Source: Sphingomonas morindae
GTDB taxonomy: Bacteria; Pseudomonadota; Alphaproteobacteria; Sphingomonadales; Sphingomonadaceae
Direction: 5' to 3'
Length of the DNA stretch: 64,000 nucleotides
Assembly (NCBI RefSeq): GCF_023822065.1
Contig: NZ_CP084930.1
Span: 2,372,001-2,436,000, forward strand
Shown here: piece by piece, positions 25,338-60,267 of the stretch
Layout of the letters: every line of letters starts with the position of its first letter
Position numbering within the stretch: position 1 is the stretch's first letter
Notes under the pieces: generated by a model
The model's database searches: none
Told to the model about the DNA's origin: nothing
The model's input: only the letters and a program-made list of their open reading frames with translations
Translations under genes and position numbers: made by a program

Positions 25338-25344
25338 TTATAGG
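25338..25344 (-). promoter_or_regulatory. CCTATAA flagellar element before flgG
   Basis: On the minus strand this reads CCTCCTATAAAAG, about 45 bases before the flgG start and inside the flgF-flgG gap. It is one of a family of such elements before flagellar transcription units in this window. No clear -35 partner is visible. Confidence 0.5.
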
Positions 25345-25347
25345 AGG

Positions 25348-26130
25348 CTATTCGGCCTTCCCGAGCCGCCCGATCGCTTGTTTGCGCAAGGCATCGAGAT
25401 TGGCGGACATTTCCATGCTCGTCTGGTAGGCGCGCAGGATCTCGATCATGTGGGTGGATTCGAGGATCGGCTGGACGTTGGAGGCCTCGGCGCCGCCGGT
25501 TCGGAGATGGGTCTCGGCGGGCGCGAGCAGCCTACCGCCGGCGCCCGACAGCAGGCCATCGCCGCGTTCGGACACGCGCAGCTCGTCGAACACGGTCACC
25601 CCTAGCCGCGCGATCGGCGCGCCGGCGACGGGGCTGCCCGTGTCCGATCCGGCGCCGCTCGCGGCGGTGATGGTGCCGTCGGCGGCGATCGCCAGCCCCG
25701 CCCGGCGTTCGGGCGGGATGGTGATGGGCCGGCCGCCCTCGTCCAGCACCGGCTGGCCGCCCGCCGCCGCGAGCAGGCCATCGGGCCGCACATGCAGCAT
25801 GCCGTCGCGCGTATAGGCGGTGGCGCCGGCGGCGTCGCGCACGGCCAGATAGCCGGGCCCCTCGATCATCACGTCCAGCGGATTGCCGGTGGCCTGGAAG
25901 GCGCCCGCCCGCGCATCGTGCACCGCGCCGAAATCGAGCACGAAGCTGGTGCTGCGCGCATCGGGGATCGGCGCCTCGCGCGTGCGCTCGACAAAGCTGT
26001 GGAACAGCGCCTGGCCGCGCTTGTAGCCGGGCGTGTTGACATTGGCCATGTTGCTGGCGGCGATGTCCATCTGGCGGCGCAGCGCCTGGGCATGGCTCAA
26101 CAGCACATAGGTCGAGACATCGGAGGACAT
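25348..26130 (-). CDS. flgF: Flagellar proximal rod protein FlgF
   Basis: A 260-residue rod protein: N-terminal MDIAASNMANVNTPGYKRGQ, a central domain with GNPLDVMIEGPGYLAV, and a C-terminal SNVQPILESTHMIEILRAYQ. It forms part of the proximal rod. I chose ATG 26130 because GGGAGCGGCG precedes it directly; the frame is open to 26169 without a ribosome site. It is divergent from fliL, with a palindromic TATAAT element in between, and is followed by flgG after its own element. Confidence 0.92.
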   Translation of the reverse strand: MSSDVSTYVLLSHAQALRRQMDIAASNMANVNTPGYKRGQALFHSFVERTREAPIPDARSTSFVLDFGAVHDARAGAFQATGNPLDVMIEGPGYLAVRDAAGATAYTRDGMLHVRPDGLLAAAGGQPVLDEGGRPITIPPERRAGLAIAADGTITAASGAGSDTGSPVAGAPIARLGVTVFDELRVSERGDGLLSGAGGRLLAPAETHLRTGGAEASNVQPILESTHMIEILRAYQTSMEMSANLDALRKQAIGRLGKAE

Positions 26131-26194
26131 CGCCGCTCCCGCGTGCCGGCATGATCGCGAAATCGGCATCGGCCGACCGGCTGGCCGACGCCCT

Positions 26195-26207
26195 CTCTAT
26201 AATAGAG
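26195..26207. promoter_or_regulatory. Palindromic flagellar element CTCTATAATAGAG
   Basis: A perfect 13-base palindrome (odd centre) containing TATAAT on one strand and TATTAT on the other. It lies in the divergent flgF/fliL gap, 65 bases from flgF and 119 from fliL, so it could serve both directions. It belongs to the same family as the CCTATAA elements at other flagellar genes. Confidence 0.5.
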
Positions 26208-26325
26208 GCGTGATGGCCGTTCGCGGCGGATCGGCGGCATTTCGGCTGGCGAACGTGATGCCGGCGGACGTGATGCGGGCGGAAAGCAGGGCTGGCTGAA
26301 GAAGCGGCCGGCGGAGGGAGTGGCT

Positions 26326-26868
26326 GTGTCGAACGAAGCACGGATCGCGTCGGGCGGGCGGTCCTATGACGATGACGAGATCAGCGCGGCGGCGGCGGTG
26401 CCGGCATCGGCGCCGGCGCCGCTCGCGCCCGCGCGCCGCACGCGCGTGCTGCCGATGCTCTTCGGCGGGGCGCTGGCGCTGGCGGCCATGGCGGGGGCCG
26501 GCGTCTATCTGCTGCGGCCGGCCGCCCCGCCGACCGAGGTCGCCCCCGCGAGCGGCGCCGCGGCCGATCTCTATGTCGATGCGCCGCCCATCATCGTCAG
26601 CGTCCACGGCGCCGATGGCCGCGCGCACTTCATCAAGCTGCGCTTCGTCGTGGTGGCGCGGAGCAAGGGCAAGGCCGAGCTGCTGAAGGAAAGGATGCCG
26701 ATGCTGCTCGACGCGCTGCAATCCTTCCTGCGCGAACTCCGCGCCGAGGATCTGGACGGATCGGCGGCGGTGTACCGCGTCAAGGAGGAGATGATGCTGC
26801 GCATCCGCGCCGCGATCGGCGACGACAGCGTGAGCGACGTCCTCATCCAGGATCTGGTGGAGCAATGA
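26326..26868 (+). CDS. fliL: Flagellar basal-body protein FliL
   Basis: About 180 residues: a cytoplasmic N-terminus, one membrane span (MLFGGALALAAMAGAGVYLL) and a periplasmic FliL domain (FIKLRFVVVARSKGKAELLK, then YRVKEEMMLRIRAAIGD and the end VLIQDLVEQ). FliL supports the stator at the motor. The GTG at 26326 lies 7 nt after GGAGGG; a GTG at 26320 is too close. The stop overlaps the fliM start (ATGA), opening a four-gene operon. Confidence 0.88.
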   Translation: MSNEARIASGGRSYDDDEISAAAAVPASAPAPLAPARRTRVLPMLFGGALALAAMAGAGVYLLRPAAPPTEVAPASGAAADLYVDAPPIIVSVHGADGRAHFIKLRFVVVARSKGKAELLKERMPMLLDALQSFLRELRAEDLDGSAAVYRVKEEMMLRIRAAIGDDSVSDVLIQDLVEQ

Positions 26869-27863
26869 GCGTGGAGGAGGCCGAGCGTCCGCGCGAGCCC
26901 GCGATCGATCGCTTCGACCAGGCCGGGATCGACGCGATCTTCGGTTTCGATACGCCGCCGCCGCGCGCCGCCAAAAAGGGCCTGCGCGCGCTGCTCGATG
27001 CCGATATCGCCAATCGCGAGCGGCTGCCCATGCTCGAAGTGGTGTGCGAGCGCATGGTGCGCACCTTCGCCACCAGCATGCGCAACCTCACCTCCGATGC
27101 GCTCGACGTGCATCTCGAGCGGGTCAGCACCACGCGCTTCGGCGATTTCATGAACCGGCTGCCGCTGCCTGCGATGATCGGCGTCTTCCACGCCGCGCCC
27201 TGGGACAATTTCGGCGCGATCACGGTCGATTCCGGCCTGATCTACGCGGTTGTGGACTCGCTGCTGGGCGGCCGGCGCGGCGGCGCCGTGATGCGCATCG
27301 AGGGGCGCGCCTTCACCTCGATCGAAACGGTGCTGGTCGGCAAGATGATCCAGCAGACCCTGGCCGATTTCGCCGCCTCCTTCAGCGCGATCGAGCCGGT
27401 GCAGATGACGCTGGAACGGGTCGAGACGACCCCCCGCTTCGCCGCGATCGCCGGGCCGAGCAACCTCACCGCCGTCGCCACCTTCCGGGTCGAGATGGAG
27501 GAGCGGGGCGGCAGTTTCTCGATTGTGCTGCCCTATGCCACGATCGAGCCGGTGCGCGACAAGCTGGTGCAGCGCTTCGCCGGCGAGAAACTCGGCCATG
27601 ACGCGGTGTGGGGCGCCCATATCGCGCGCGAACTGCTCGCCACCGAAGTTACGCTCGAGGCGGTGCTGGGCGAGCGCACCATGCGCGTGCAGGACTATAT
27701 GGCGCTGCGCGTCGGACAGACGATCGGGCTCAACCGCGAGCCCGACGATCCGATCACGATCGCCAGCGGCGGCGTGCCGCTGGGCCAGGCGCAGATCGGC
27801 AAGCGCGCGGCCTCGGTGGCGGTGCAGATGCTCAACGACATCGCCGATGGATTCTCCGCATGA
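26865..27863 (+). CDS. fliM: Flagellar motor switch protein FliM
   Basis: A 332-residue C-ring protein. The central CheC-like domain includes FGDFMNRLPLPAMIGVF, YAVVDSLLGGRRGG and MTLERVETTPRFAAI; the C-terminal SpoA domain carries LEAVLGERTMRVQDYMALRV. The N-terminal CheY-binding motif usually reads LSQxEIDALL; here FDQAGIDAIFGFD takes that place and is diverged. Translationally coupled to fliL before it and to a DUF6468 gene after it. Confidence 0.94.
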   Translation: MSVEEAERPREPAIDRFDQAGIDAIFGFDTPPPRAAKKGLRALLDADIANRERLPMLEVVCERMVRTFATSMRNLTSDALDVHLERVSTTRFGDFMNRLPLPAMIGVFHAAPWDNFGAITVDSGLIYAVVDSLLGGRRGGAVMRIEGRAFTSIETVLVGKMIQQTLADFAASFSAIEPVQMTLERVETTPRFAAIAGPSNLTAVATFRVEMEERGGSFSIVLPYATIEPVRDKLVQRFAGEKLGHDAVWGAHIARELLATEVTLEAVLGERTMRVQDYMALRVGQTIGLNREPDDPITIASGGVPLGQAQIGKRAASVAVQMLNDIADGFSA

Positions 27864-28504
27864 CCCTCTCGGCCTTGAGCGACGGGCTGGTGGCGATGCT
27901 CTGCCTTGCCCTGCTGGTGCAGACCTCGCGGCTGTCGCTGCTCGTCCGGCGCCTCCGCAGGGAGGAACTCGGCGCCATGGTGCGCACCATCGATGCCGCG
28001 CTCGCGGCCACCCAGTCGGCCATGGCCGAGTTGCGCGGCGCGCTCGCCACCGAGGCGTCCGCCCAGGCGGAGGCGATCGCCCGCGCCGCGCCGCTGCGCG
28101 ACGAACTGACGATGCTGCGCGACGAGCTTTCGGTGATGGTGGGCGTCGGCAATGGCATAGCCGAGCGGTTGGTGGCGGCGGCGGAGGCGGCGCGCACGGC
28201 GCGGCCCGCCAGCCCCGAGGCGGTGGCTCCGGACGACGACGCCGATGCGCGGCCGCCGGCGCGCACCGCGCGATCGCGCCGGCGTCGATCCAAGCCCGCG
28301 GCGGCGGTGCCGGATGCGGGTGCGGCCGAAGGCCGGGCGGCGGTGCCGCGCGTATCCGAGACGCCGCAGCCCTATCGCCCCCCCGTGAAGATCCGGCCCG
28401 CGGAGACGATCCGGACGGCGGCGATCGACGCCGCGCCGCCCCACGCGGCCGAGCCCGAACGCCACGACGCCACCATAATTCCCTTTCTGGGTGCTTCGGC
28501 ATGA
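27860..28504 (+). CDS. DUF6468-type flagellar-cluster protein, one membrane span
   Basis: A 214-residue protein with an N-terminal membrane span (LSDGLVAMLCLALLVQTSRL), a helical stretch likely to form a coiled coil (EELGAMVRTIDAALAATQSA onward) and a low-complexity Ala/Pro/Arg tail ending IIPFLGASA. The place between fliM and motE, and the layout, match the DUF6468 family of alphaproteobacterial flagellar operons. The role is not established. ATGA overlaps link it to both neighbours, so it should be made in step with FliM and MotE. Confidence 0.7.
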   Translation: MTLSALSDGLVAMLCLALLVQTSRLSLLVRRLRREELGAMVRTIDAALAATQSAMAELRGALATEASAQAEAIARAAPLRDELTMLRDELSVMVGVGNGIAERLVAAAEAARTARPASPEAVAPDDDADARPPARTARSRRRRSKPAAAVPDAGAAEGRAAVPRVSETPQPYRPPVKIRPAETIRTAAIDAAPPHAAEPERHDATIIPFLGASA

Positions 28505-29259
28505 GCCGCGCCTCCCGTCCGGCGCGGCGCCGCCCGCCGCGCCTGCCGCCGCTGCTGCTATTGACGGGCGCGGCAGCGGGTTTCGCCGCCATCACCCATG
28601 CGGTGGAGGCGGGAACGCAGCCGCCGCCGCCCCGCGTGACGCCGGCGGCCAGCGCGCTGGGCGCCGCCGTGTTCGAAGGCCTGTCCGATCGCGATCGCGC
28701 GCTCGCTCGTCAGATGCGCGCGCTCGATCTGCGCGAGCGCAGCGCGCGCGCCGCCGAGCAGCGCTTGCAGCAGGCGCTCGATCCCGGGCAGGGCGGATCG
28801 GCGCCCGCCGGCGGCTTCGCGTCGCCGGGGCCCGCACAGCCGGCGCGTCCGGCCGGCTCCGCACCCGCCTCGACCGATGTGCTGGATGATCTGGCGCGCA
28901 TCTACCAGACGATGAAGCCGGCACGCGCCGCGCCGATCTTCTCGGCGCTGGAGCCCGAGGTGCAGGCGCAGCTCGCCCGGCACATGCGCGATCGCGCCGT
29001 GGCCGCGCTGATGGCGGAAATGGATCCGCTCGCCGCCGCCCGGCTCAGCACCATGCTCGCCGGCCGCCGGGTGCCCGATCGGCTGCTGCCCCCGGCGCCA
29101 CGCCTCGGCGACCGGACGCCGCCCGTGCGCGTCGCAAGCCTCGCGCCGCCGGCCGCGGCGCGCGACGCGCGCCCCGGCGCGTCCGCGCTGCGCCCCGCGC
29201 CGGAACCGCTCGCCGCATCCCCCGCCGCCCCGCCGGCGGCCGGGCCGCGCGGACGATAG
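28501..29259 (+). CDS. motE: MotE-like motor chaperone
   Basis: 252 residues: an N-terminal signal or membrane span, a helical segment rich in Arg and Gln (MRALDLRERSARAAEQRL), then a MgtE-N-like domain (LDDLARIYQTMKPARAAPIF, MAEMDPLAAARLSTML) and a disordered Pro/Ala tail. MotE in rhizobia is a periplasmic chaperone needed for MotC folding. Position behind fliM and DUF6468 is the common alphaproteobacterial order. No motC is seen in this window, so its client may differ here. Confidence 0.75.
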   Translation: MSRASRPARRRPPRLPPLLLLTGAAAGFAAITHAVEAGTQPPPPRVTPAASALGAAVFEGLSDRDRALARQMRALDLRERSARAAEQRLQQALDPGQGGSAPAGGFASPGPAQPARPAGSAPASTDVLDDLARIYQTMKPARAAPIFSALEPEVQAQLARHMRDRAVAALMAEMDPLAAARLSTMLAGRRVPDRLLPPAPRLGDRTPPVRVASLAPPAAARDARPGASALRPAPEPLAASPAAPPAAGPRGR

Positions 29260-29832
29260 GCGGGAGGCTGCGGCCCGAAGGGGCGCGCGGGTGGGCGGGG
29301 CGGTCGCGCGACACGATGCGTCCGGCGTCTTCGAGCGCGCCGCTTCGCTCGGCCGCTATCGGCATGCCTGTCCGGTCGGCGCCTCCCGGCGCTCCCCGCC
29401 TCGGCTGTGTCAGCGAGCGGATTCCGCCGAGGCGCCGATCGGAGACACGCCTGCGTCCGGCTGCGATGGCGCCATCTGCCCCACCAGCCGAGCGGGCGAC
29501 CGGCGCGCGCCCGCCGCGGCCTCTCCCGGCTCCGCGTTGCGCGGGTGGCAAGCACAGAGCCGCCGGCGCGGGGCCGGTCGCGCGACGGTGCGACCAGCAG
29601 GTGCGGGAGCACGTCCGCGACCGGGACCATAGGGAATGCCCGTCCGTAAGAGGCCCCGTCGAGCCTCTTTCGGGCGTCTTCGAGCGCCTTTCCCGATCGA
29701 ACTCGCGCCTCGGTCCGACCGCTAGGCTGGAGCGTCGCGGCTCGGGCGCGCGGGAGCGCCGCTGGAGGCGGAATGCGCGCAAGGAGAGCTGGCCTCCGCA
29801 GCGCCTGCGATCATGTGCGCCGCCGGCGCGGT
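29260..29832. other. Gene-poor GC-rich gap with a probable terminator
   Basis: Between motE and a convergent small gene I find no supportable coding region. A 15-base direct repeat (GGCGTCTTCGAGCGC) occurs near 29326 and again near 29676. At 29648-29669 AAGAGGC and GCCTCTT form a 7-bp stem, which could end the fliL-motE transcript although it is almost 400 bases after motE. Confidence 0.4.
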
Positions 29833-30240
29833 TCAGCTGGGCGAGCAGGTGAGATCGAGGATCAGCACGCGCCGCACCTCGTCCTGCGGCGTGAAATCGC
29901 GGCTGTTGAGCATCAGGCTCAGCCGCTGCGCGTCGGGCGCGGTGAGCGAGGAGCCGTGCAACCGCCCGAATTCGAGCAGCGCGGCGAGGAGCTGGGCGCG
30001 CAGCACCGGCAGCGTCCGGTTCAGGCGGACGAGCGCGGCGCTGTCCTGCGCCTCGGCGGCGAGCCGCGCGGTGAGGTGACCGCTGATATTGCCGTTGACG
30101 ATCATGGGCAGCTCGAACGGCTCGAGCCGCAGGATGCGCGGCGCCTCCGTGCGGACGGCATGCGGCGCCGCGTCGCGCGGGAGGCCGTGGGGCGCGGTGG
30201 CGAGGGCGGGCAGCGCCGCCAGCACGATGCGGTAGGACAT
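29833..30240 (-). CDS. FliL-like small exported protein, flagellar context
   Basis: A 135-residue protein with an N-terminal signal (MSYRIVLAALPALATAP). The core reads PFELPMIVNGNISGHLTARL, then LNRTLPVLRAQLLAALLEF and ends DEVRRVLILDLTCSPS. The pattern resembles the protein at 40647-41078 and, more distantly, FliL domains. I chose the ATG at 30240; the frame is open to 30390 but that would cross the promoter-like element at 30285-30300. Function unknown; a periplasmic motor accessory is the likeliest guess. Confidence 0.65.
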   Translation of the reverse strand: MSYRIVLAALPALATAPHGLPRDAAPHAVRTEAPRILRLEPFELPMIVNGNISGHLTARLAAEAQDSAALVRLNRTLPVLRAQLLAALLEFGRLHGSSLTAPDAQRLSLMLNSRDFTPQDEVRRVLILDLTCSPS

Positions 30241-30284
30241 AAGGTCTCGCTTTCCCGGGAGGGACCGTCGGTCCGCGCCCTTCC

Positions 30285-30300
30285 GCTCTATAATAGGAGC
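30285..30300. promoter_or_regulatory. Near-palindromic flagellar element GCTCTATAATAGGAGC
   Basis: The core CTATAATAG is a perfect 9-base palindrome. It lies in the divergent gap between the FliL-like gene (45 bases away, leftward) and a small membrane-protein gene (16 bases away, rightward), as the similar palindrome at 26195-26207 lies between flgF and fliL. Confidence 0.5.
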
Positions 30301-30315
30301 GTTGCGGCTCGGGGG

Positions 30316-30537
30316 ATGCGAATGGCGGGTGATCGAATGGAACGGATGCGGCTGCTCGCGGCCTCCCAGCAGCGTGTCTGGCGCCGCCACGATGATCCGT
30401 CGTTCGGCGAACCGGATTCGCCCTCGCGGCCGCTGCCGTCGCTGGCGCTGCCGCTGATCCTTCTTTTCCTGTTCGGGAGCAGCGTGGGCGGGCTGCTGAT
30501 CGCCGCCTTCGGCCTGTTCGCGCCGGCAGCGCCCTGA
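30316..30537 (+). CDS. Small one-span membrane protein, flagellar context
   Basis: A 73-residue protein with a charged N-terminal half (RLLAASQQRVWRRHDDPSF) and one C-terminal membrane span (LPLILLFLFGSSVGGLLIAA). An ATG at 30322 with GGGGGA upstream is an alternative start. The stop is 2 bases before the start of the large TPR-like gene, so both are probably co-transcribed from the element at 30285-30300. No family recognised. Confidence 0.6.
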   Translation: MRMAGDRMERMRLLAASQQRVWRRHDDPSFGEPDSPSRPLPSLALPLILLFLFGSSVGGLLIAAFGLFAPAAP

Positions 30538-30539
30538 GG

Positions 30540-43377: not shown

Positions 43378-43384
43378 TTATAGG
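43378..43384 (-). promoter_or_regulatory. CCTATAA flagellar element before motA
   Basis: The minus strand reads ATCCTATAAGGGG. It lies in the divergent motA/flaF gap. The flaF element on the plus strand is about 95 bases away, each pointing to its own gene. Confidence 0.5.
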
Positions 43385-43473: not shown

Positions 43474-43483
43474 GCCTATAATG
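43474..43483 (+). promoter_or_regulatory. CCTATAATG flagellar element before flaF
   Basis: GCCTATAATG lies 26 bases before the flaF start codon, on the flaF strand. Upstream sequence is GC-only, with no TTGACA-like -35 box. Confidence 0.5.
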
Positions 43484-45283: not shown

Positions 45284-45290
45284 TTATAGG
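45284..45290 (-). promoter_or_regulatory. CCTATAA flagellar element before fliN
   Basis: The minus strand reads CTCCTATAAGGCCGG, 22 bases before the fliN start. The divergent flgC element is 40 bases away on the other strand. Confidence 0.5.
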
Positions 45291-45328: not shown

Positions 45329-45340
45329 GCCTATAATGGC
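45329..45340 (+). promoter_or_regulatory. CCTATAATG flagellar element before flgC
   Basis: GCCTATAATGGC is on the flgC strand, 46 bases before the flgC start. It matches the flaF element over GCCTATAATG. No -35-like box is visible upstream. Confidence 0.5.
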
Positions 45341-48277: not shown

Positions 48278-48289
48278 TTCCTATAGGAA
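48278..48289. promoter_or_regulatory. Palindrome TTCCTATAGGAA just before flgI
   Basis: A perfect 12-base palindrome overlapping the flgI ribosome site (AGGAAAGG). If it works as a -10 element, the flgI transcript would have almost no leader, so it may instead be an operator or a chance relative of the flagellar CCTATAA elements. Confidence 0.35.
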
Positions 48290-48294
48290 AGGCG

Positions 48295-50169: not shown

Positions 50170-51270
50170 TCAGAAGCGCGCGGCGATCACGGTGGCGAGA
50201 TCGGCGGGATCGCAGGCGTCGATCGCGATATCGCGCGGCGGGTTTACGCTATGGCCCCGCATCTGGCCTTCGCGATCCAGCCCGATGGCGAGCAGCCGCA
50301 TTCCCTCCGCCTCGCGCAGCACGGCGAGCGTGCCCGGTGCGGGAAAGCGATCCGGATCGACGATCAGGATCGCGCCCGCCGGCAGGCCCAGGCCGAGGCT
50401 TTGCCGATCCGAGCGCAAGCCATAGGCGCGCGGCCCCGCCACGCTCGGCGCCTCGACCCACTGGCCCAGCGGGGTGCGCCCGATCAGCCCGTCCGCGCGC
50501 GGCGTTCCGAACACGGGCAGAAGCGGCACCGCCCGCATCTCGCGATCGGCGGGGGCTGGATCCACCGCGCGCGCGGGGGGCGGCGATGGCGGGTCGCGGC
50601 GCGGTGGCGGCGGCCGGCGCGCCGGCGCGGACGCGGCGCCGGTCAGCGCCAGGCGCAGGGCGGCCACGCGCGCGTGCGTCTTGGCGATCCGGATCTCGGG
50701 CGCGGCGATCGCGGCGATGAAGGGCGCGAGCGCGTCCGTCTCCGCCAGCGCCTCCACATGCGCGCGCAGCGCGGCTTCGTCCGCCACCCCCAGAAGATCG
50801 CACAAAGCCGCGCGCAGCCCCGGATGCCAGCGGCCGAACGGCTTCATCGCCGCCTCGACGCGCGACAGCATCACCGGCGGAATATGGTGGCGCGCCTCGA
50901 TCGCGGCGATGGTGAGGCCCGGCGCGCGCGCGCGGAGCGCCCGCACCGCCGCGCCGAGCAGGATGGCGAAGCGATCCTCGTCCGGCGGTGCCGGATGCCA
51001 ATCGCGCAACTCGGCCGCCCAGGCGGCGATATCGAAATCGGGCGCGTCGATGTCGATCAGCAGACGCTCGGGCGGGAGCGCAAGCACCGCCGCGATCGCG
51101 CGGACTTCCTCGGGCTTGGCGAAAATCTCGCCGCGTTCGATCTTGGAGAGGCGGATATAGGCGAGGTCGGGCAGGTGCGCCGCCAGCGCGAGCAGCGTGG
51201 CGAAGCCCGCCGCCCGCCGCGCGCGGCGGATCGCATTGGGGAAGACCAAGGATCGATAGGGATCACCCAA
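50170..51270 (-). CDS. XRE helix-turn-helix regulator with a LexA/S24-like C-terminal domain
   Basis: About 366 residues. An N-terminal helix-turn-helix (AIRRARRAAGFATLLALAAH, IRLSKIERGEIF) is followed by a helical middle, a Pro-rich linker and a C-terminal S24-like fold (YGLRSDRQSLGLGLPAGAIL, then IVDPDRFPAPGTLAVLREA). The nucleophile Ser is plausible, but the usual Lys partner is replaced (EGMRLLAIGL), so it may not self-cleave. No ATG fits the start; a TTG at 51270 (or 51249) is chosen. It lies downstream of, and reads with, the sigma factor gene, so a flagellar regulatory role is likely. Confidence 0.6.
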   Translation of the reverse strand: MGDPYRSLVFPNAIRRARRAAGFATLLALAAHLPDLAYIRLSKIERGEIFAKPEEVRAIAAVLALPPERLLIDIDAPDFDIAAWAAELRDWHPAPPDEDRFAILLGAAVRALRARAPGLTIAAIEARHHIPPVMLSRVEAAMKPFGRWHPGLRAALCDLLGVADEAALRAHVEALAETDALAPFIAAIAAPEIRIAKTHARVAALRLALTGAASAPARRPPPPRRDPPSPPPARAVDPAPADREMRAVPLLPVFGTPRADGLIGRTPLGQWVEAPSVAGPRAYGLRSDRQSLGLGLPAGAILIVDPDRFPAPGTLAVLREAEGMRLLAIGLDREGQMRGHSVNPPRDIAIDACDPADLATVIAARF

Positions 51271-51345: not shown

Positions 51346-51355
51346 CGTATAAGCC
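51346..51355 (-). promoter_or_regulatory. Promoter-like TATACG element before the XRE/S24 regulator
   Basis: The minus strand reads GGCTTATACG about 75 bases before the chosen TTG start and just before the end of the sigma gene. It is a weaker relative of the flagellar elements. Confidence 0.3.
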
Positions 51356-51382
51356 AAGCGCTTCGCTAAGCGCGCGTCGGCT

Positions 51383-52369
51383 TTAATGCAGCGCCCGGCT
51401 CGTCCGCTCGCCCGCGTCGCCCTCGCAGAGGCGCACGGCATGGTCTTCGGGCGCGGGGTCGCGGCCGCGCGGCGCGCCCGGCCGCTGGGGCGGAGCGGCC
51501 GGGGCGGGGCTTTGATGCTGATCGGGCGCGGGCGGCGTGGCGCTGTCCACCATGATGGCGAAACGGGGATCCTGCTGGGCGATGGTGGCGATGGTGCGCG
51601 CCGCCCGCTTGGCGATCTGGCGCATCCGCTCCTTGGTAATCGCGCCATCCTCCTCGCTCTTCTCGATCGGGCTGAGCTCGAAGATACGCTGCTCGACCAG
51701 CGCGCGGTTGCGGTGCAGCCGCTCCTCGAGTTGGCGCAATTCTTCCGGATCGATGCTGTTCACCTTCAGCCTTGGCCGTTTCTCCGTGGGCGGGGTGGTG
51801 CCCGGGCGGCGCGGGCGGCGGCTGAGCTGGGCGATGCCGATCGCGCGGAGATGGGCGACATAGCTGTCGATCATGGCCCGCATGGCGTTGTCCGCCAGAT
51901 AGGCGGAAGCGTCCGCCTCGGTCTGGGCGAGCGCCTCCTCATCCTCGATCAGCAACTCACCCGGGCCGGCATCGTCGCTGGTCTGCGTCAGCGCATGCAG
52001 CGAGACGGTGGTGGCCGCCACCTTGCGCGCCGAGGGGCGCTGGTCCGTCATCAGCCGGAAGCGCAGGCCCTGCAGCTCGCCCCGGATCAGCCAGTTGACG
52101 AAGGTGGTGAAGCGCGCGCGTTCCGGATCATAGGTCTCGATCGCGCGATGCACGGCGATGGCGCAGACCTGTTCGGCATCCTCCCAATGGCCGCCCAGCC
52201 CATATTGCCGGATGAAGTGCCGGATACGCGGCGCGAGCAGCGTCAGGATCCGCGCGAACAGCCGATCTTCCGCAAGCCTTTGACGGGGGCTGGGCGCGGG
52301 ACCGTGCGCCTCCTTGGCCGCGCGCAGGCTGGTCACCGCATCTTCGATCGCCACCGTGGTTTTCGACAT
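51383..52369 (-). CDS. Divergent sigma-70-family factor in the flagellar cluster
   Basis: 328 residues. Region 2 is clear: IRHFIRQYGLGGHWEDAEQV, then AIETYDPERARFTTFVNWLI and RGELQ. A long, charged middle follows. A region 4.2-like helix-turn-helix reads DGAITKERMRQIAKRAARTI. A disordered Pro/Gln tail of about 60 residues ends the protein. It is not a plain FliA; region 3 is weak and the spacer unusual. ATG 52369 follows GGGGG at 7 nt; upstream ATGs at 52387 and 52375 are less likely. Its position between flagellar genes suggests that it reads the CCTATAA elements, which is inference. Confidence 0.75.
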   Translation of the reverse strand: MSKTTVAIEDAVTSLRAAKEAHGPAPSPRQRLAEDRLFARILTLLAPRIRHFIRQYGLGGHWEDAEQVCAIAVHRAIETYDPERARFTTFVNWLIRGELQGLRFRLMTDQRPSARKVAATTVSLHALTQTSDDAGPGELLIEDEEALAQTEADASAYLADNAMRAMIDSYVAHLRAIGIAQLSRRPRRPGTTPPTEKRPRLKVNSIDPEELRQLEERLHRNRALVEQRIFELSPIEKSEEDGAITKERMRQIAKRAARTIATIAQQDPRFAIMVDSATPPAPDQHQSPAPAAPPQRPGAPRGRDPAPEDHAVRLCEGDAGERTSRALH

Positions 52370-52443
52370 GATCATGCCCCCGATCACTGATCGGCACGCC
52401 GGCCCTGGCGCGCCGTTGCTGGGCAGATTTGGCCGTCAAAGAC

Positions 52444-52456
52444 TAACCAATGGTTA
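52444..52456. promoter_or_regulatory. Palindrome TAACCA-A-TGGTTA upstream of the sigma gene
   Basis: A perfect 13-base palindrome in an unusually AT-rich gap, about 75 bases before the sigma-factor start. It is the best candidate site for a regulator that switches on the sigma factor. Confidence 0.5.
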
Positions 52457-52492
52457 ATTCCTATAAAGCGTTTCTGCAATATATTCCTATAA
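52457..52492 (+). promoter_or_regulatory. Two ATTCCTATAA repeats, 26 bases apart
   Basis: ATTCCTATAA occurs at 52457-52466 and 52483-52492. They match the flagellar element, but here they read on the plus strand although both flanking genes are on the minus strand. They could drive an antisense RNA into the transglycosylase gene or act as operator copies for the sigma gene. Confidence 0.4.
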
Positions 52493-52542
52493 GCCGGAAG
52501 GATCTGCCGACTTGGGCGGCGTACCGCGATCGGGCGGTCGGA

Positions 52543-53879: not shown

Positions 53880-53890
53880 GATGGATCCTC

Positions 53891-55219
53891 TCAGGTCGCG
53901 AGAATGTCCGCGAGTTGGGCGAAGCCCCGGGCGGCGCTGGCGCGCGCGTCCTTGGTCTGGCAGAGCAGCGCCTCGATCCGGGGGGTGAGGGCGGCGGCGC
54001 GGTCCACCGCGGGGTTGGCGCCCTGCTTATAGGCGCCGAGCCGGATCATATCCTCCATATCGCCATAGATGGAGAGTTCGCGCCGGGCGGAGAGGCGCAG
54101 CTCATTCTCCTCGATCCGCAGCGCCTGGGGCAGGCTGCGCGAGAGCGAGCGGAGCACGTCCACGGCGGGGTAGCGGCCCTGTTCGGCGATGCGCCGGCTG
54201 AGGACGATATGCCCGTCCAATATGCCGCGCACGGCATCGGCGACGGGCTCGTTATGATCGTCGCCATCGACCAGCACGGTGAAGACGCCGGTGATCGCGC
54301 CCGATCCTTCGGCGCCCGGGCCGGCGCGCTCGAGCAGCCGCGGCAGCTCGGCGAAGACGGTGGGCGTATAGCCCTTGGTGGCGGGCGGCTCGCCGCTGGC
54401 GAGGCCGATCTCGCGCTGCGCCATGGCGAAGCGGGTGACGCTGTCGATCAGGCACAGCACGCGCAGCCCCTGATCGCGGAAATGCTCCGCTACCGCCAGC
54501 GTGGTCCACGCCGCCTGGCGCCGCATCAGCGCGGGCTCGTCGGACGTGGCGACCACCACCACGCTCCGCGCCAGCCCGTCGGCGCCGAGATCGTCCTGCA
54601 CGAATTCCTGCACCTCGCGCCCGCGCTCGCCGATCAGGCCGATCACCGCCACATCGCATTCGGCCCAGCGCGCCAGCATCGCCAGCAGCGTCGACTTGCC
54701 GACGCCGGAGCCCGCGAACAGGCCCAGCCGCTGGCCGATGCAGAGCGGCGCGAACAGATCCAGCGCCGCCACCCCCGTCTCGATCCGCGCGCCGATGCGC
54801 GCGCGCCGCGACGCGGGCGGGGGCGCGGCGCGGATCGCGCGCGTCTGCGCGCCGAGCAGCAGCGGGCCGCGCTGGTCCGCCGGACGGCCGAGCCCGTCGA
54901 TGATGCGGCCGAGCCAGGCGGAGGAGGGCCGCAGCGCGAGCTGTTCCGCCGCGAGATCGGCGCGCGCGCCCGCCGCCACCCCCTGCGGATCGCGAAAGGG
55001 CAGGCAGTGCGCGATGCCCCGGTCCAGCCCCGTCACCTCGGCCTCGATCGGTCCGGCCGCGGTGGCCACCGTCACGCGCGCGCCGATCTGCGCGGCGCCG
55101 CTGAGCCCCTCCACCTCGATCAGGCTGCCGCGCACCGCCACCACGCGCCCGTAGCGCTGATCCAGCGGCCGGGCGCGCAGCCCCGCGACGGCGGTGGACA
55201 GGGGCAGCATCAGCGGCAT
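53891..55219 (-). CDS. fliI: Flagellum-specific ATPase FliI
   Basis: A 442-residue ATPase of the F1-beta type. Walker A GSGVGKS is at residues 170-176, with VGLFAGSGVGKST-like context (LGLFAG), and GERGREVQEF, DSVTRFAMAQREIGLASGEP and ATKGYTPTVFAELPRLLERA follow. It powers and unfolds export substrates at the gate. Its ATG overlaps the flbT stop by one base, and fliJ follows closely. Confidence 0.95.
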   Translation of the reverse strand: MPLMLPLSTAVAGLRARPLDQRYGRVVAVRGSLIEVEGLSGAAQIGARVTVATAAGPIEAEVTGLDRGIAHCLPFRDPQGVAAGARADLAAEQLALRPSSAWLGRIIDGLGRPADQRGPLLLGAQTRAIRAAPPPASRRARIGARIETGVAALDLFAPLCIGQRLGLFAGSGVGKSTLLAMLARWAECDVAVIGLIGERGREVQEFVQDDLGADGLARSVVVVATSDEPALMRRQAAWTTLAVAEHFRDQGLRVLCLIDSVTRFAMAQREIGLASGEPPATKGYTPTVFAELPRLLERAGPGAEGSGAITGVFTVLVDGDDHNEPVADAVRGILDGHIVLSRRIAEQGRYPAVDVLRSLSRSLPQALRIEENELRLSARRELSIYGDMEDMIRLGAYKQGANPAVDRAAALTPRIEALLCQTKDARASAARGFAQLADILAT

Positions 55220-55614
55220 CAGGCGGCATCGCCCGGCGCCAGAAGCTCGCCCTCATACTGGACGAGGCGCCGGCATTCGGCGAGCGCGGCGTAGAAATCG
55301 CCGGCGCCGCCATGCCCGATCACCGCCAGACAGGCGGCGCGCATCTCGGGATGGGCGAGCGCGGCGAAGAGTTCGCCCGCGCGCGCGGCGATGGCCTGGC
55401 GGTGCCGATCCGCCGCCTCGGGTTCGATATAGGCCATCATGCAGGCGAAATAGAGCCGCCGCGCCGGCGTGTTGGCCTCCTCGGCGCGCATCACGTCGCG
55501 GCCGCGCAGCACCGCGCTCGCCGTCTCCACCGCCAGCGTCACGCGGCCCTGCGCGCGCAGCACCGCGCCGTTGATGATCACGCGCTCGCCGTCGCGCAAC
55601 CCGATCCGCAGCAT
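55219..55614 (-). CDS. flbT: Flagellin mRNA regulator FlbT
   Basis: A 131-residue protein: MLRIGLRDGERVIINGAVLR, VMRAEEANTPARRLYFACMM and YEGELLAPGD match FlbT. In Caulobacter FlbT binds the flagellin mRNA leader and controls its translation and decay. Here flagellin is encoded 5 kb away at 60352. It starts the flbT-fliI-fliJ-transglycosylase run, behind a TCTATAAAC element. Confidence 0.9.
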   Translation of the reverse strand: MLRIGLRDGERVIINGAVLRAQGRVTLAVETASAVLRGRDVMRAEEANTPARRLYFACMMAYIEPEAADRHRQAIAARAGELFAALAHPEMRAACLAVIGHGGAGDFYAALAECRRLVQYEGELLAPGDAA

Positions 55615-55634
55615 CGCCGCCTCCTTCCTGCCCG

Positions 55635-55643
55635 TTTATAGAC
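55635..55643 (-). promoter_or_regulatory. CTATAAA flagellar element before flbT
   Basis: The minus strand reads CCGTCTATAAACGGG, 21 bases before the flbT start. The flgE elements on the plus strand are 45-80 bases away in the same divergent gap. Confidence 0.45.
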
Positions 55644-55685
55644 GGTCCGGCGCCGGTCTGTACGAAAGCAGGCTAGGAAAATAAT

Positions 55686-55725
55686 GCCTATATTGGGCCG
55701 GCGCATCGCTCGCTCTACAATAAAG
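55686..55725 (+). promoter_or_regulatory. CCTATATTGG and CTACAATAAAG before flgE
   Basis: Two AT-rich elements on the flgE strand: GCCTATATTGGGC (55686-55698) and CTCTACAATAAAG (55713-55725), about 60-90 bases before flgE. Either could be the -10 box; neither is as close to consensus as those of flaF or flgC. Confidence 0.4.
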
Positions 55726-55783
55726 CAGGCGCCGCCCGGCGCTGCCGACGCTGCGCTGCGCAGATGATTAGTTGGAGACAAGT

Positions 55784-57079
55784 ATGAGCCTCTATTCCGC
55801 TCTTAATGCTGGTGTTTCCGGGCTCGGCGCGCAATCCGGCGCGATGGCGACGGTGGCGGACAACATCGTCAACGTGAACACGGTCGGCTTCAAGGGCAGC
55901 AAGGCCGATTTCGCGACGATGGTGACCGGGGGCAACAGCCGCTCCAGCTATTCGGCGGGCGGCGTCAGCCTCGTTACCAAGGCCGCGATCTCGCGCGCCG
56001 GCACGCTCAACGCCGGCAGCCGCACCACCGATCTCGGCATTGAGGGGAAGGGCTTCTTCATCGTCCGCCCGCAGCCGGACAGCAAGGACGTGGCCTATAC
56101 GCGGGCGGGCAATTTCTTCGCCGACCAGCTTGGCAATCTCGTCAACGCGGCGGGCTATTATCTGCAGGGCTGGCCGCTCGACGCGGACGGCAATGCCGCA
56201 GGCAGCGGCCTGGAGAGCCTGCGCACCGTCAATCTCAACGGCCTGCTCGGTTCGGCCGATCCGACGCGCAGGCTGACGATGCAGCTGAACCTCGATTCCC
56301 GGCTGGATCCCTATGCCGGCACGCCCGCCTACAGCGCCGGCGCCATGGCCCAGGGCACGGTGAAGCCCCAATATTCCCAGTCCAAGCTCGTCTATGACGC
56401 GCAGGGCAATCCGCACGACGTGACCTTCGGCTTCATCAAGACGGGGCCGAACACGTGGCAGGCGGAAATCTATGGCAAGGCGGGCGAAGTCGATGCCAGC
56501 CAGGCCAATGGCCTGCTCGCCTCGGGCAAGCTGGTCTTCGATGGCGACGGCAAGCTGGACCCGACCGCCAGCGACAGGGCCGTGCTGGACGGCTTCACCC
56601 CGAAATGGGCCAATGGCGCGGGTTCGGTCAAGATCACCATGCCTTTCGGCGGCACCGACAATGTCTGGAAGCAGATCGCCGACGTATCGAAGATCGGCGC
56701 CTATTCGGTGGACGGCGGCAAGCTCTCGGAGATCACCAAGGTCCAGGTCTCGCAGAAAGGCATCGTCACGGTCTTTTTCGAGGGCGGCAGCGCGCGCGAC
56801 ATTTTCAAGGTGCCGCTGGCGGCTTTCCAGAATGCCGATGGGCTGACGCGGCTCAACGGCAATGCCTATCAGGACGCGATCGAATCGGGCTCGCCCTCGA
56901 TCGAGCCCGCGGGCGAGGGCGCCGGCAAGATCTGGGGCGGCCAGCTCGAGGCCTCGACCACGGACTTGGCGGAAGAATTCAGCAACATGATCCGCTTCCA
57001 ACGCGCCTATAGCGCCTCGTCCAAGATCATCACGACGGTGGACGAGATGCTGCAGGAGCTGAGCGCGCTCAAGCGCTGA
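55784..57079 (+). CDS. flgE: Flagellar hook protein FlgE
   Basis: A 431-residue hook protein: MSLYSALNAGVSGLGAQSGA, DNIVNVNTVGFKGSKADFAT, TDLGIEGKGFFIV and a C-terminus NMIRFQRAYSASSKIITTVD, then EMLQEL. ATG 55784 lies four bases after GGAGAC. flgD, the hook-cap gene usually before it, is not here. It starts a flgE-flgK-flgL run. Confidence 0.95.
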   Translation: MSLYSALNAGVSGLGAQSGAMATVADNIVNVNTVGFKGSKADFATMVTGGNSRSSYSAGGVSLVTKAAISRAGTLNAGSRTTDLGIEGKGFFIVRPQPDSKDVAYTRAGNFFADQLGNLVNAAGYYLQGWPLDADGNAAGSGLESLRTVNLNGLLGSADPTRRLTMQLNLDSRLDPYAGTPAYSAGAMAQGTVKPQYSQSKLVYDAQGNPHDVTFGFIKTGPNTWQAEIYGKAGEVDASQANGLLASGKLVFDGDGKLDPTASDRAVLDGFTPKWANGAGSVKITMPFGGTDNVWKQIADVSKIGAYSVDGGKLSEITKVQVSQKGIVTVFFEGGSARDIFKVPLAAFQNADGLTRLNGNAYQDAIESGSPSIEPAGEGAGKIWGGQLEASTTDLAEEFSNMIRFQRAYSASSKIITTVDEMLQELSALKR

Positions 57080-57110
57080 TCCGGGCGCGCGCGGCCAGGA
57101 GGGCTCCACC

Positions 57111-59186
57111 GTGTCGATCTACCAGATCCTCTCGTCCGCGATCAGCGGCCTCAACGCGACCCAGGCGGCGATCCGGACGACCGCCAACAACATCTCCAAC
57201 GTGGTGACGCCGGGTTATGCCCGGCGTCGCACCACGATGACGAGCGCGGTCACCGCCGGCGAGGTGACGGGCGTCGACGTCGCCGATATCCAGCGCATCG
57301 CGGACCGCTATCTGGAAGGCGCCGTCTATGCGCGCGGCGGCGATGCCGGCCGCAACAAATCGCTCGCCGATTACTATGATCGGCTGCAAAGCCTGTTCGG
57401 CAAGCCCGGCGCGTCGGGCGGCCTGCCCAGCCGGCTGACGGGAATCGTCAAGGCCGCCACCAAGATGGGCGGGCTGAGCGATCCCACCGAGGCGGTCAGC
57501 GCCTTTCTCGGCGAGGTCAGCAGCACGATCGACGCGATCCGCGGCGCGCGCGACGATCTTCGCGCGATGCGCGACGAGACCAGCGCGTCGGCGGCGGAAA
57601 GCGCGGCGCGCGTCAACGCGCTGCTCACGCAGATCGACGGCCTCAACACGGATATCGCGCGGCTCGGCCCGGCCAATCGCGAGTCCGGCCTGATCGATCA
57701 GCGCATGGCGGCGCTCCAGGAGCTGAGCGGCCTGATCTCGGTCCGCGCCACCGATCAGGCCGATGGCCGGGTGAGCATCGACACGATCAGCGGCATCACT
57801 TTGCTGGACCAGCGGCGCCGGCAGATCGATCCGCCCGAGCCCGGTACGGGCGAGATGGCGATCCGTGTCGTGGGGGTCGACGGCAAGCCCGGCGCTGCGA
57901 CCGGCGAGACCATCGCCTCCACCACCATCGGCGGCAAGCTCGGCGCGCAGATCGAGATGCGCGACCGCATCCTGCCCAAGGCCGAGGATGATCTGGAAGG
58001 GCTGTTCGCCAGCCTTACCGAAACGCTCAACACCGTTTCCAACGCCGGCACGGCGGTGCCGCCGCCGCCCAGCCTCACCGGCCGCCGGACCGGGCTGGTC
58101 GCCACCGACACGCTCGGCTTTTCGGGCGGCGCCGCCATCGCCATCCTCAAGGCCGATGGCACGGTGACGGCGTCCGCGCGCCTCGATTTCGACGCGCTCG
58201 GCCGCAACGCCAGCGTTCAGGACATGCTCGACGCCATCAACAGAGGCCTGGGCGGCGCGGGCACCGCCTCGCTCGACACGGGCGTGCTGACGATCACATC
58301 GACCGACGCCGCCAACGGCGTTTCGATCGCGCAGAACGGACAAAGGGGCGCCAGCCGCGCCGGGCTCGGCTTCTCCGCCTTTTTCGGCCTCAACGATCTC
58401 ATCCGCAGCCCGACCGCGCCGGGCGCCCCGATCGGCCTCGCCGGTACGGACAAACATGGGTTCGGGCGCGGCGAAAGCGTCGGCCTGACGCTGCGCGACC
58501 CGACCGGCCGGAGCGTCGGCCGCTATACGCTGACCGGGAGCCGGGGCGATACGGTCGCGGATCTCGTCGCCGAACTCAATGCGAGCCCGCTCGGCCAGGC
58601 GGGCCAGTTCGGCCTGGATGATCGCGGCCGGATCCGGTTCGCGCCCAGGGATGCCAATTCCGGCCTCAGCCTGTCGATAAGCGCGGATACGACCGATCGA
58701 CTGGGCACCGGCATCAGCTTCTCGCAATGGTCGGGGCTGGGCAATCAGGGGAGCGGCCTCGACGATGCCGCCGTTTCGCCGAGCCTGATCGAGAATCCCA
58801 GGCGCCTGCCCATGGCGCGCGCCAATGCCGATGCCGGGGTCGGCGAAAAGGCCGTGGCGCCGGGCGATGTGACGGGTGCCAAGGCCTTTGCTCAGGGCCT
58901 GGGCGCGGCCATCGATCTCGGCCGCCGCGGCAAGGCGAACATCAGCGCCTATCTGAGCCAGATGGTGGCGGATATCGCGAGCGGTGCCGCCGCCGCCAGC
59001 GCCGCCGAAAAGGCTTCCACCGCCCGCCTGACCGACGCGATGAGCCGCCGGGACAATTTTTCGGGCGTGAACAAGGACGAAGAATTGGCGCTGCTGGTGG
59101 AACTCCAGAAGAGCTACGCCGCTTCGGCGCGGATCGTGACGGTGGCCGCCGAAATGTACGAGACCCTCGTCAACATGGTGAAGTGA
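57111..59186 (+). CDS. flgK: Hook-filament junction protein FlgK
   Basis: A 691-residue protein starting at GTG 57111. The N-terminus SIYQILSSAISGLNATQAAI, NNISNVVTPGYARR and the C-terminus DEELALLVELQKSYAASARI are typical of FlgK. The middle is longer than in Escherichia coli (547) and is the variable, surface-exposed part. It links the hook to the filament together with FlgL, encoded next. Confidence 0.93.
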   Translation: MSIYQILSSAISGLNATQAAIRTTANNISNVVTPGYARRRTTMTSAVTAGEVTGVDVADIQRIADRYLEGAVYARGGDAGRNKSLADYYDRLQSLFGKPGASGGLPSRLTGIVKAATKMGGLSDPTEAVSAFLGEVSSTIDAIRGARDDLRAMRDETSASAAESAARVNALLTQIDGLNTDIARLGPANRESGLIDQRMAALQELSGLISVRATDQADGRVSIDTISGITLLDQRRRQIDPPEPGTGEMAIRVVGVDGKPGAATGETIASTTIGGKLGAQIEMRDRILPKAEDDLEGLFASLTETLNTVSNAGTAVPPPPSLTGRRTGLVATDTLGFSGGAAIAILKADGTVTASARLDFDALGRNASVQDMLDAINRGLGGAGTASLDTGVLTITSTDAANGVSIAQNGQRGASRAGLGFSAFFGLNDLIRSPTAPGAPIGLAGTDKHGFGRGESVGLTLRDPTGRSVGRYTLTGSRGDTVADLVAELNASPLGQAGQFGLDDRGRIRFAPRDANSGLSLSISADTTDRLGTGISFSQWSGLGNQGSGLDDAAVSPSLIENPRRLPMARANADAGVGEKAVAPGDVTGAKAFAQGLGAAIDLGRRGKANISAYLSQMVADIASGAAAASAAEKASTARLTDAMSRRDNFSGVNKDEELALLVELQKSYAASARIVTVAAEMYETLVNMVK

Positions 59187-59195
59187 GAAGAGATC

Positions 59196-60107
59196 ATGAT
59201 CAGGATCGCGACACTCCCGATGCAGGCGGCGATGCGTGACCTGCTGGTCGATCAGGGCAACGCGCTTCAGGATGCGACGATGCGCAAGGCTTCGGGCAAG
59301 CGCCTCTCCAGCTTCGCCGAACTCGGGGCGGACACGGGGCGCAATCTCGCCACGCGCACGCTGCTCGCGCAATATGAGGGGCAGAAGGTGGTGCTGGATC
59401 GCGTCGACACCGCGCTGGCGCTGTACAAGACGCGACTGGGCGAGATCGACACGGCGGCGAGCAGCTTGCGCACCGTCTTGCTCAAGGGGATCGGAACGGG
59501 CGACATCCAGAGCATCATGAGCGAGGCCGAGGCGGCCTTTGGTCGGTTCCGGGAGTCGATCAACGCGGCCGATGACGGCACGCTCATCTTCGCGGGCGGC
59601 CGTACCGATACGCCGCCGCTCGGCCCCAATAGGCTGTCCGACATGGCGACGATCGATCCCGCCACCCTCTTCGCCAACGATGATTTCCGCCGCAGCGCGC
59701 GGCTGTCGGACGGCTATGAGATGCGCTATGGCATCGTCGCCAGCGATTTCGGCCAGCCTTTCGCCACCGCGTTCAAGATTCTCGCGACATTGGGTCCGGT
59801 CGGACCCGACGGCAAGGCCACCAGGGAACAGCTCGACAAGATGGGCCAGGCCAGGGTCGCGATCGACGACGGGCTGAAGCTGCTCCGCACCGCCGACGCC
59901 AATAACGGCAACAGCCAGGCGCGGGTGGACGACATCGTGTCGCATCTGGCGGAGCGCTCCGACCTGCTCACCAAGGCGCTGAGCGACATGGAAGATGCGG
60001 ACGATGGCGCGCTCTCCATGGAGATCACCACGCGGGATGCTATGTATAAATCCTCGCTCGCCGCGTTCAGAATGGTAAACAGTGTTTCTCTGGCAGACTA
60101 TCTCTAG
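59196..60107 (+). CDS. flgL: Hook-filament junction protein FlgL
   Basis: A 303-residue flagellin-like junction protein: IRIATLPMQAAMRDLLVDQG, RKASGKRLSSFAELGADTGR and the end AAFRMVNSVSLADYL. It starts nine bases after flgK. The N- and C-terminal coiled regions are like flagellin; the centre is unique. Confidence 0.9.
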   Translation: MIRIATLPMQAAMRDLLVDQGNALQDATMRKASGKRLSSFAELGADTGRNLATRTLLAQYEGQKVVLDRVDTALALYKTRLGEIDTAASSLRTVLLKGIGTGDIQSIMSEAEAAFGRFRESINAADDGTLIFAGGRTDTPPLGPNRLSDMATIDPATLFANDDFRRSARLSDGYEMRYGIVASDFGQPFATAFKILATLGPVGPDGKATREQLDKMGQARVAIDDGLKLLRTADANNGNSQARVDDIVSHLAERSDLLTKALSDMEDADDGALSMEITTRDAMYKSSLAAFRMVNSVSLADYL

Positions 60108-60255
60108 TCGACCAAGCCGTCGTGCGGGTCGGAGCGAGGCGCAGGACGGCGCCATGCTCCGGCCCTTTTCTTTTAAAGCGCGGCCGACGCGTGCTAAAGA
60201 AATCCCCGACGCCGGAAAAAATAGTCCCTCACTCGACGCTGATCCTCTCTCGCGT

Positions 60256-60267
60256 CCCATAATAGGG
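60256..60267 (+). promoter_or_regulatory. CCCATAATAGGG element before flagellin
   Basis: A near-palindrome with CATAAT, 84 bases before the flagellin start. It is like the flagellar elements elsewhere but has CAT instead of TAT. No sigma-54 TGGCAC-TTGC pair or classical sigma-28 TAAA/GCCGATAA box was seen. Confidence 0.45.

Follow-up and report, generated by a model that had tools for sequence, protein, structure and literature searches.

The 64-kb window analysed here, by which we mean the whole stretch C1:2372001-2436000 of the 4.24-Mb Sphingomonas morindae genome (G000), holds a flagellar gene cluster in which the heptamer CCTATAA, or a variant of it, stands before nearly every transcription unit, as the initial annotation had noticed. 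The full form of this element is TTCCTATAAT. With a probability of roughly 0.7, we propose that TTCCTATAAT is the -10 element of a dedicated promoter class of the alpha-type flagellar system of these sphingomonads, that it would be read by RNA polymerase carrying the product of a divergent, unannotated sigma-70-family gene (51383-52369, minus strand; hereafter sig) with the help of the FlbD protein, and that this class would have taken over from the sigma-54/FlbD promoters still used by related families. The element is conserved, sigma-54 sites are missing from the compared flagellar regions of genomes with sig, FlbD has lost its GAFTGA motif or its whole AAA+ domain, and these features co-occur with sig; an ancestral sigma-54 state, the reading of the element by sig, the binding of FlbD to an upstream palindrome and the control of sig by CtrA would complete the scheme.

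CCTATAA and its full form upstream of flagellar genes

The window contains 13 exact copies of CCTATAA, whereas 100 dinucleotide shuffles gave 0.52 on average and never as many as 13. It is not a common word of the genome, because its 184 copies genome-wide are fewer than the 259 of the same word written backwards. Genes were called with a codon-usage script and named in part through Pfam and NCBIfam, the remainder by similarity and by eye. Five copies (4093, 4873, 10739, 46115 in fliE and 54027 in fliI) fall inside genes and are explained by codon choice, as the initial annotation had warned; the other eight are non-coding, one of them at 5061 in the pst operon and seven in flagellar gaps (25338, 43378, 43475, 45284, 45330, 52460 and 52486). 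The density is thus seven copies in 2,580 bp of flagellar non-coding DNA against one in 47,717 bp from 16 background stretches (p = 7e-9), a test that is partly circular because the word had been picked out of the same window. A further stretch, L038, was excluded from this comparison because a second flagellar system (system B, see below) lies there, and since the gene caller evidently missed genes in the background stretches L037 and L039 the background non-coding length is overestimated, which leaves the result unchanged. The 340 kb of 17 background stretches contain 12 copies, 11 of which lie within coding sequence.

The sig gene was used to fetch relatives, which yielded ten loci from Sphingobium, Sphingomonas, Novosphingobium, Sphingorhabdus and a Sphingomonadales metagenome-assembled genome. 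When the regions ahead of orthologous flagellar genes were taken from the relatives alone, 27 of the 189 contained CCTATAA (0.75 expected), and the overlapping TCCTATA ranked first among 7-mers, also with 27 of 189 regions (about 0.5 expected), CCTATAA being second. The form TCCTATAA has just 12 copies in the 4.24 Mb, five of them within the 38-kb flagellar cluster (p = 4e-8); these five lie in flagellar gaps, one is in the pst operon gap, three are intragenic by the gene calls (L169, L170 and L172), and the remaining three (L171, L179 and L180) have no assignment or adjoin non-flagellar genes.

A weight matrix of the element, which was found de novo, reads T-C-C-T-A-T-A-A-T. In 55 non-redundant sites the two positions of the CC are C in 91% and 96% and TA..AA is conserved at 89-96%, one core base being looser (T, 82%), which accounts for CCTACAATG and CCTAGAATG as seen before flgE and flaF. 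The distance to the start codon is mostly gene-specific and near-constant: the relatives' best match lies 36-43 nt upstream of flbT in 10 of 12 loci, 45-57 nt upstream of motA in 7 of 8 and 27-32 nt upstream of fliN in 3 of 4 (the script passed over genes with a BLAST match that started deep within the query, and L137 had no upstream sequence). A functional -10 element lies 6-9 nt ahead of the transcription start. Before flgI, the TATAAx hexamer ends 5-7 nt ahead of the ATG in the window and in two relatives (L009, L010), a placement that fits the -10 box of a leaderless mRNA.

Promoters read by RpoD carry a TTGACA-like -35 box about 17 bp from the -10. No such box, and no conserved -35 hexamer at sigma-70 or sigma-28 spacing, was found in the 55 aligned sites, which bears out the early remark that no -35 box is clear; C at -19 and G at -17 are slightly favoured (familywise p of 0.05 and 0.002, respectively). 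What is conserved instead is an A/T block, which in many sites forms a palindrome (GGCAAAAATTGCC, GGAAAATTTTTCC) and whose centre lies some 35 bases ahead of the CC; 47 of the 55 sites have A or T at -36, and as many at -35, the share in the spacer being 26%. L006 and L008 have a single such palindrome for both directions in their flbT/flgE gap, at 34.5 and 32.5 bases from the boxes. The view of the initial annotation that the element may be a flagellar promoter class is supported, in that it looks like one; the A/T palindrome, about -50 from the expected start site, would stand in for a -35 box.

In the window, exact copies precede motA (43378-43384, minus strand, 49 nt from the start codon; strict element in 7 of 8 relative loci) and fliN (45284-45290, minus, 28 nt; 6 of 7), and the form CCTATAAT precedes flaF (43475-43481, plus, 34 nt; best match in relatives at 33-38 nt in 6 of 8 loci) and flgC (45330-45336, plus, 48 nt; strict in 4 of 8). 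The copy reported before flgG is present (25338-25344, minus, 51 nt from the start, matrix score 15.9), but it is not conserved, the best score being at most 6.5 in 5 of 5 relatives. All the palindromic or variant copies that had been listed, at flgF/fliL, the small gene pair, flgI, flbT, flgE and fliC, are present as well. They comprise the palindrome CTCTATAATAGAG in the divergent flgF/fliL gap (26195-26207, plus; CCTATAATAG in L066, CCTATTATAG in L073 and L069), where TCTATAATAGAG had been listed at 26196, the palindrome TCTATAATAGGAG in the divergent gap 30240/30337 (30287-30299, plus), CCTATAG(G), that is CCTATAGG, before flgI (48280-48286, plus; the hexamer ends 7 nt from the ATG and the mRNA is predicted to be leaderless), TCTATAA before flbT (55636-55642, minus, 28 nt; strict in 7 of 12 relative loci), CCTATAT before flgE (55687-55693, plus; strict, mostly as CCTACAAT, in 9 of 12) and the weak variant CCATAAT(AGG) before the flagellin gene fliC (60257-60263, plus). 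These variants are weaker than CCTATAA, and flgI, flbT and flgE often have a fuller form in relatives. The sole non-coding copy in the window outside the flagellar genes, TCCTATAA at 5061-5067, lies 12 nt 5' of pstC.

Sigma-54 sites and FlbD with and without sig

The genome carries two flhA genes. System A, to which the element belongs, consists of the window and of C1:400-411 kb (L058), where flhA was found by search and flgD, fliK, fliF, fliG and flgB by eye and similarity. A-type clusters were located across the order through FlgI, and the stretches around flgI were fetched and compared; a position weight matrix scan of low-GC genomes lacking sig was noisy, and the comparison was therefore made on orthologous upstream regions. 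The regions with sig come from 21 loci, several of them from the same genome (G290: L008, L066, L067; G278: L062, L120; G275: L068, L069; G253: L073, L118; G190: L074, L119), and L006 and L008 are nearly identical. G233, whose sig is only 25% identical, was left out of the sig-bearing group, G031 was counted as lacking sig despite a weak generic sigma match (6e-6), and the Fisher values ignore shared ancestry.

Flagellar operons under sigma-54 are preceded by the promoter pattern TGGCAY-N5-TYGCW. In print the flagellar site is also given as GGCNC-N4-CTTGC (PMC4287350). Upstream of flgI, the sigma-54 site is present in 17 of 17 regions from genomes without sig, including G053 of the same family, and the strict element in none of them; with sig, by contrast, the sigma-54 site is found in none of nine regions and the strict element in seven. 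For the other two, L118 (TTCTATAAG) and L068, the matrix gives 16.0 and 12.4, against a range of 4.4-13.9 in regions without sig. Before flgI of the window stands CCTATAGG, and the sigma-54 pattern has no match there or anywhere else in the window or in L058. Taken over all compared regions, the 115 with sig include 49 that carry the element and none with a sigma-54 site, and the 65 without sig include 24 with a sigma-54 site and none with the element. Among the 115 are those of mostly intra-operon genes that have no element (fliE 0/8, flgK 0/13, flgA 0/5, flgH 0/5), and the two gene sets are not alike, since the clusters differ in content; the cleanest comparison is that of flgI. These distributions indicate that the box would have replaced sigma-54 promoters and not sigma-28 ones.

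FlbD, whose gene adjoins flhA, was identified in 18 of the 20 genomes searched that lack sig, and Walker A and KGAFTGA are present in all 18 proteins; in G021 and G023 no match reached FlbD level. The GAFTGA motif is the loop that contacts sigma-54, according to excerpts of PMC7175178. It is found in none of the seven FlbD proteins from sig-bearing genomes, none of which thus has the AAA+ domain with GAFTGA of a sigma-54 activator. The loop reads GDFPGA in G253 and G275, GAFPGA in G278 and GAFDGA in the Sphingorhabdus locus L010, and the DE of Walker B in these full-length proteins is replaced (RG, RD, RE and RN in G253, G275, G278 and L010); in G290, G190 and the window genome (L058:3808-4314, 168 aa) FlbD has no AAA+ domain at all. 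All seven proteins retain the C-terminal helix-turn-helix (GNRT..A..LGISVRTMRNKL). In G233 there is no FlbD between a fliN-like gene and flhA, and a search for FlbD in G138 did not find it.

In the genomes with sig, FlbD has lost its sigma-54-activating ATPase, either the motif or the whole domain, while retaining its DNA-binding part. Flagellar genes have a palindrome of the CGGCAA...TTGCC type nearby more often than expected, in 27 of 84 cases (2.7 expected) where sig is present and in 13 of 58 (1.3 expected) where it is absent, and one DNA-binding protein may therefore have kept its site as the promoter changed. We infer that this protein is FlbD, which probably binds the palindrome; the literature consulted on FlbD sites gave no consensus for ftr, the FlbD-binding site.

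The sigma-70-family gene and the proposed reader of the element

The initial annotation had placed a sigma factor at 51383-52369, and the gene there is indeed a member of the sigma-70 superfamily that travels with the element. Among 24 aligned family members Pfam finds Sigma70_r2 in 23 and Sigma70_r4 in six, the window protein having region 2 only. The closest solved folds are sigma factors (best E-value 4e-3, none below 0.001), and the AlphaFold model has a mean pLDDT of 78.6, with at least 94 per block over residues 1-100 and a confident region 2. The window protein falls below the cut-offs of all eight NCBIfam models listed for it, among them FliA/WhiG (TIGR02479, 16.7 bits against 189.6) and the sigma-70/ECF model (TIGR02937, 22.3 bits against 42.9); it is not FliA.

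Matches to sig were found in 33 of 296 genomes of the order, seven of them, the window genome included, above 250 bits. All seven have an A-type FlgI with 67-100% identity. The window's family contains eight genomes whose FlgI is at least 65% identical; seven are those with a strong sig, and the eighth, G233, has a weak one (25%) in its cluster, where GGCTATAA before motA, seen by eye in L122, is a possible co-evolved variant promoter. Genome-wide counts of TCCTATAAT over the 296 genomes told nothing about co-occurrence and were dropped, since they are governed by base composition and few copies of the exact 9-mer exist even in the window genome (two, and six of the control).

CtrA-controlled genes are marked by TTAA-N7-TTAA, or a near variant of it, ahead of the gene. 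Upstream of sig lies a CtrA-type box, TTAACCATTGGTTAG (52443-52457, minus), which is the sole match to this pattern in the window. The exact pattern is found upstream of sig in three of 16 relative loci (the nearly identical L006 and L008, and L009), TTAG-N7-TTAA was seen by eye in L001 and L004, and the pattern has no match in 110 regions that were taken as controls from other flagellar genes of the relatives. Because sig lies behind this box, we propose the order CtrA, then sig, then the flagellar operons. The two copies of the element at 52460-52466 and 52486-52492 (both plus, 26 nt apart), of which the first adjoins the box, are present as reported, but they face away from the sigma gene that they precede. 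Similar reversed copies were seen in several relatives; those beside the box (52443-52492) could be an antisense promoter or an autoregulation site.

If the element is a -10 box, the housekeeping factor RpoD might read it instead, with an activator (shortened FlbD or CtrA) at the palindrome and sig doing something else. We regard this as rather unlikely, although it is the chief alternative. The core is TATAAT, which a housekeeping sigma factor with an activator could read, and the lack of a -35 box is a trait of activator-dependent sigma-70 promoters. Excerpts of PMC10274813 report that some bacterial enhancer-binding proteins (bEBPs) without GAFTGA are active at sigma-70 promoters without ATP hydrolysis, and the available part of PMC6180460 describes fla2 promoters of Rhodobacter sphaeroides that use CtrA and whose conserved A at -11 is taken as a sigma-70 contact. 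The CC before TATAAT, however, is nearly invariant, 263 other genes of the genome show no upstream enrichment of CTATAA (2 found, 1.4 expected) or TATAAT (1 found, 0.7 expected), and the swap of promoters coincides with the presence of sig. No clear RpoD consensus emerged from the general promoter k-mers of those 263 genes, and the housekeeping -10 is therefore not directly comparable. The co-occurrence favours sig over RpoD as the putative reader.

It is improbable that the box serves as an operator for a repressor or an activator instead of as a -10 element. A dimer site is suggested by palindromic forms such as CTATAATAG, with copies at 26195, 30287 and 48280, and the two copies facing away from sig would suit an operator. 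These points are outweighed by the near-constant distance of each gene's copy to the start codon, by the placement of the flgI hexamer 5-7 nt before the start in three genomes and by the lack of a conserved second half-site (Kullback-Leibler values below 0.2 in columns 8 to 10).

The initial annotation had taken the element for a sigma-28 -10 box with G changed to T, which would be read by a FliA-type factor. The letters of GCCGATAA and GCCTATAA are indeed alike, and in sigma-28 promoters TAAA precedes a GCCGATAA-like -10 by about 15 bp. None of the 55 element sites, however, has TAAA at -20 to -17, and the sigma-28 pattern has no match in the window or in L058. The genome has a true FliA elsewhere, at C1:902583-903230 (220.2 bits against the TIGR02479 cut-off of 189.6), within system B (C1:884-920 kb; L060 and L038), which also has its own enhancer-binding protein, two canonical TAAA-N14-16-GCCG[AT]TA sites (L038:57, plus; L038:8966, minus) and two sigma-54-like sites in L038. 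Because this second system has both a true FliA and canonical sites, and the sigma factor of the cluster scores far below the FliA cut-off, the reading as an altered sigma-28 site is contradicted in its simple form and is given very little credence here. CCTATAA and CCTANAAT are absent from the 2.2 kb of non-coding DNA in L060 and L038 (868 and 1,360 bp), which ties the word to system A and not to flagella in general. Weakest of all is the notion that CCTATAA arises by chance through codon choice or base composition, which the coding copies in the window and the background might suggest and which the seven non-coding copies in 2.6 kb, the shuffles, the genome counts, the background stretches and the independent enrichment in relatives render next to impossible.

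Several observations weigh against promoters read by sig with the help of FlbD. All genomes with a strong sig belong to one family, some of them contribute more than one locus, and the counts may therefore reflect one evolutionary event. Loss of rpoN was sought as support and not found, RpoN being encoded in 32 of 32 genomes tested. In G233 (L122) a sig gene is in the cluster, and flgI has neither the element nor a sigma-54 site; G138 has a strong sig and an A-type FlgI and gives no FlhA match, as is the case for 11 of 31 sig-matching family members, G138 among them. Four of 14 family members with an FlbT match (G053, G262, G091 and G127) have no sig match, and where distant sig genes or FlbT-sig pairs were inspected, the element was seen at one of ten places (L097). 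Thirteen of the 16 relative loci have no match to the CtrA-type pattern upstream of sig. As for the element itself, it is strict in relatives before fliC in only 1 of 4 loci, flaF in 3 of 8, flgF in 2 of 8 and flgG in 0 of 5; the A/T block is weaker in the window genome (7 of 12 sites at -36, 8 of 12 at -35); and flgI in L118-L121 is not leaderless, its ATG lying farther downstream. Beside these, an FlbT-like gene next to a shortened sig homologue was observed in L096, L097 and L098 (about 9700-10900), in genomes without an FlhA match, with TCCTATAAT 48 nt upstream of the pair in L097.

Comparison with known flagellar systems and neighbouring features

In Caulobacter, according to the part of PMC3930126 available, CtrA drives early genes including flbD, and FlbD is an RpoN-dependent activator that binds ftr. 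System A resembles this CtrA-FlbD/FliX-sigma-54 hierarchy in having an FlbD homologue beside flhA, FlbT, FlaF and a CtrA-type box at the top, and its palindromic sites could be ftr; unlike Caulobacter, it has no sigma-54 sites, an FlbD without GAFTGA or AAA+ domain, promoters with TTCCTATAAT and a sigma-70-family gene in the cluster. The loss of the sigma-54 loop with retention of DNA binding is also seen in other bEBPs without GAFTGA (Rhodobacter and Caulobacter NtrC, VspR) in the excerpts of PMC10274813, in which Caulobacter FlbD keeps GAFTGA; here, in contrast, FlbD is the protein affected and its promoters changed along with it.

With FliA promoters the element would share a dedicated flagellar sigma factor and has in common the CC before the -10 core; it differs from them in having no TAAA at sigma-28 spacing, in a sigma factor that is not FliA, and in standing not only before late genes, in which excerpts of PMC12826043 place the role of FliA, but also before genes of the basal body, the motor and export. 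The same excerpts describe Azospirillum RpoE6, an ECF sigma factor for a minor flagellin, as an alternative sigma factor in an alphaproteobacterial flagellar cluster; RpoE6 serves one flagellin and other functions, whereas sig is linked to most of the first genes of its flagellar system. They also state that no flagellum-specific sigma factor is known in Alphaproteobacteria, which is too broad because FliA clusters occur in sphingomonads, both in system B and, in the portion of PMC6472365 available, in the FliA/FlgM flagellar cluster of Sphingopyxis, which system B resembles. The statement nonetheless illustrates that such a factor is hardly anticipated. For Sphingomonas sp. WG, excerpts of PMC8921679 report that fliA was not found in two flagellar clusters and suppose a Caulobacter-like sigma-54/FlbD scheme. 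PMC13015449 describes two independently acquired FliC-containing clusters in plant-associated Sphingomonas, and its main text contains neither 'sigma' nor 'promoter'. Among the papers listed by searches of the open-access PMC literature, none has a title or abstract opening that describes the element or sig.

We lean, with some reserve, towards the broader view that the flagellar regulon changed its polymerase, sig taking over sigma-54 promoters and FlbD being reduced to a helper at a fixed -50 site, under a sigma factor that is neither FliA nor RpoN. If so, the Caulobacter sigma-54/FlbD scheme would fail for one sphingomonad lineage, and Alphaproteobacteria would have a flagellum-specific sigma factor other than FliA or RpoN and with it a new control of the flagellum. 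The lineage would be a natural experiment in which a regulon of dozens of genes moved from sigma-54 to a sigma-70-type factor while the organelle was kept, with apparent intermediates preserved (the FlbD loop substituted in some genomes, the ATPase deleted in others) and, in genomes such as that of the window, a second flagellum that is governed by a true FliA and serves for internal comparison.

Downstream of sig, a helix-turn-helix protein (HTH_31; 50170-51249, minus), whose C-terminal part looks S24/LexA-like by eye, is a candidate partner; several of the relative loci encode a homologue of it. In G278 there is another sig copy, closely related to the first (L065:22-954), with no flagellar gene recognised around it (L064, L065). 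In system B, tandem repeats of the GGCAAAA..TTGCCG type (L038:8750-8890) lie upstream of the sigma-54-like site before flgB.

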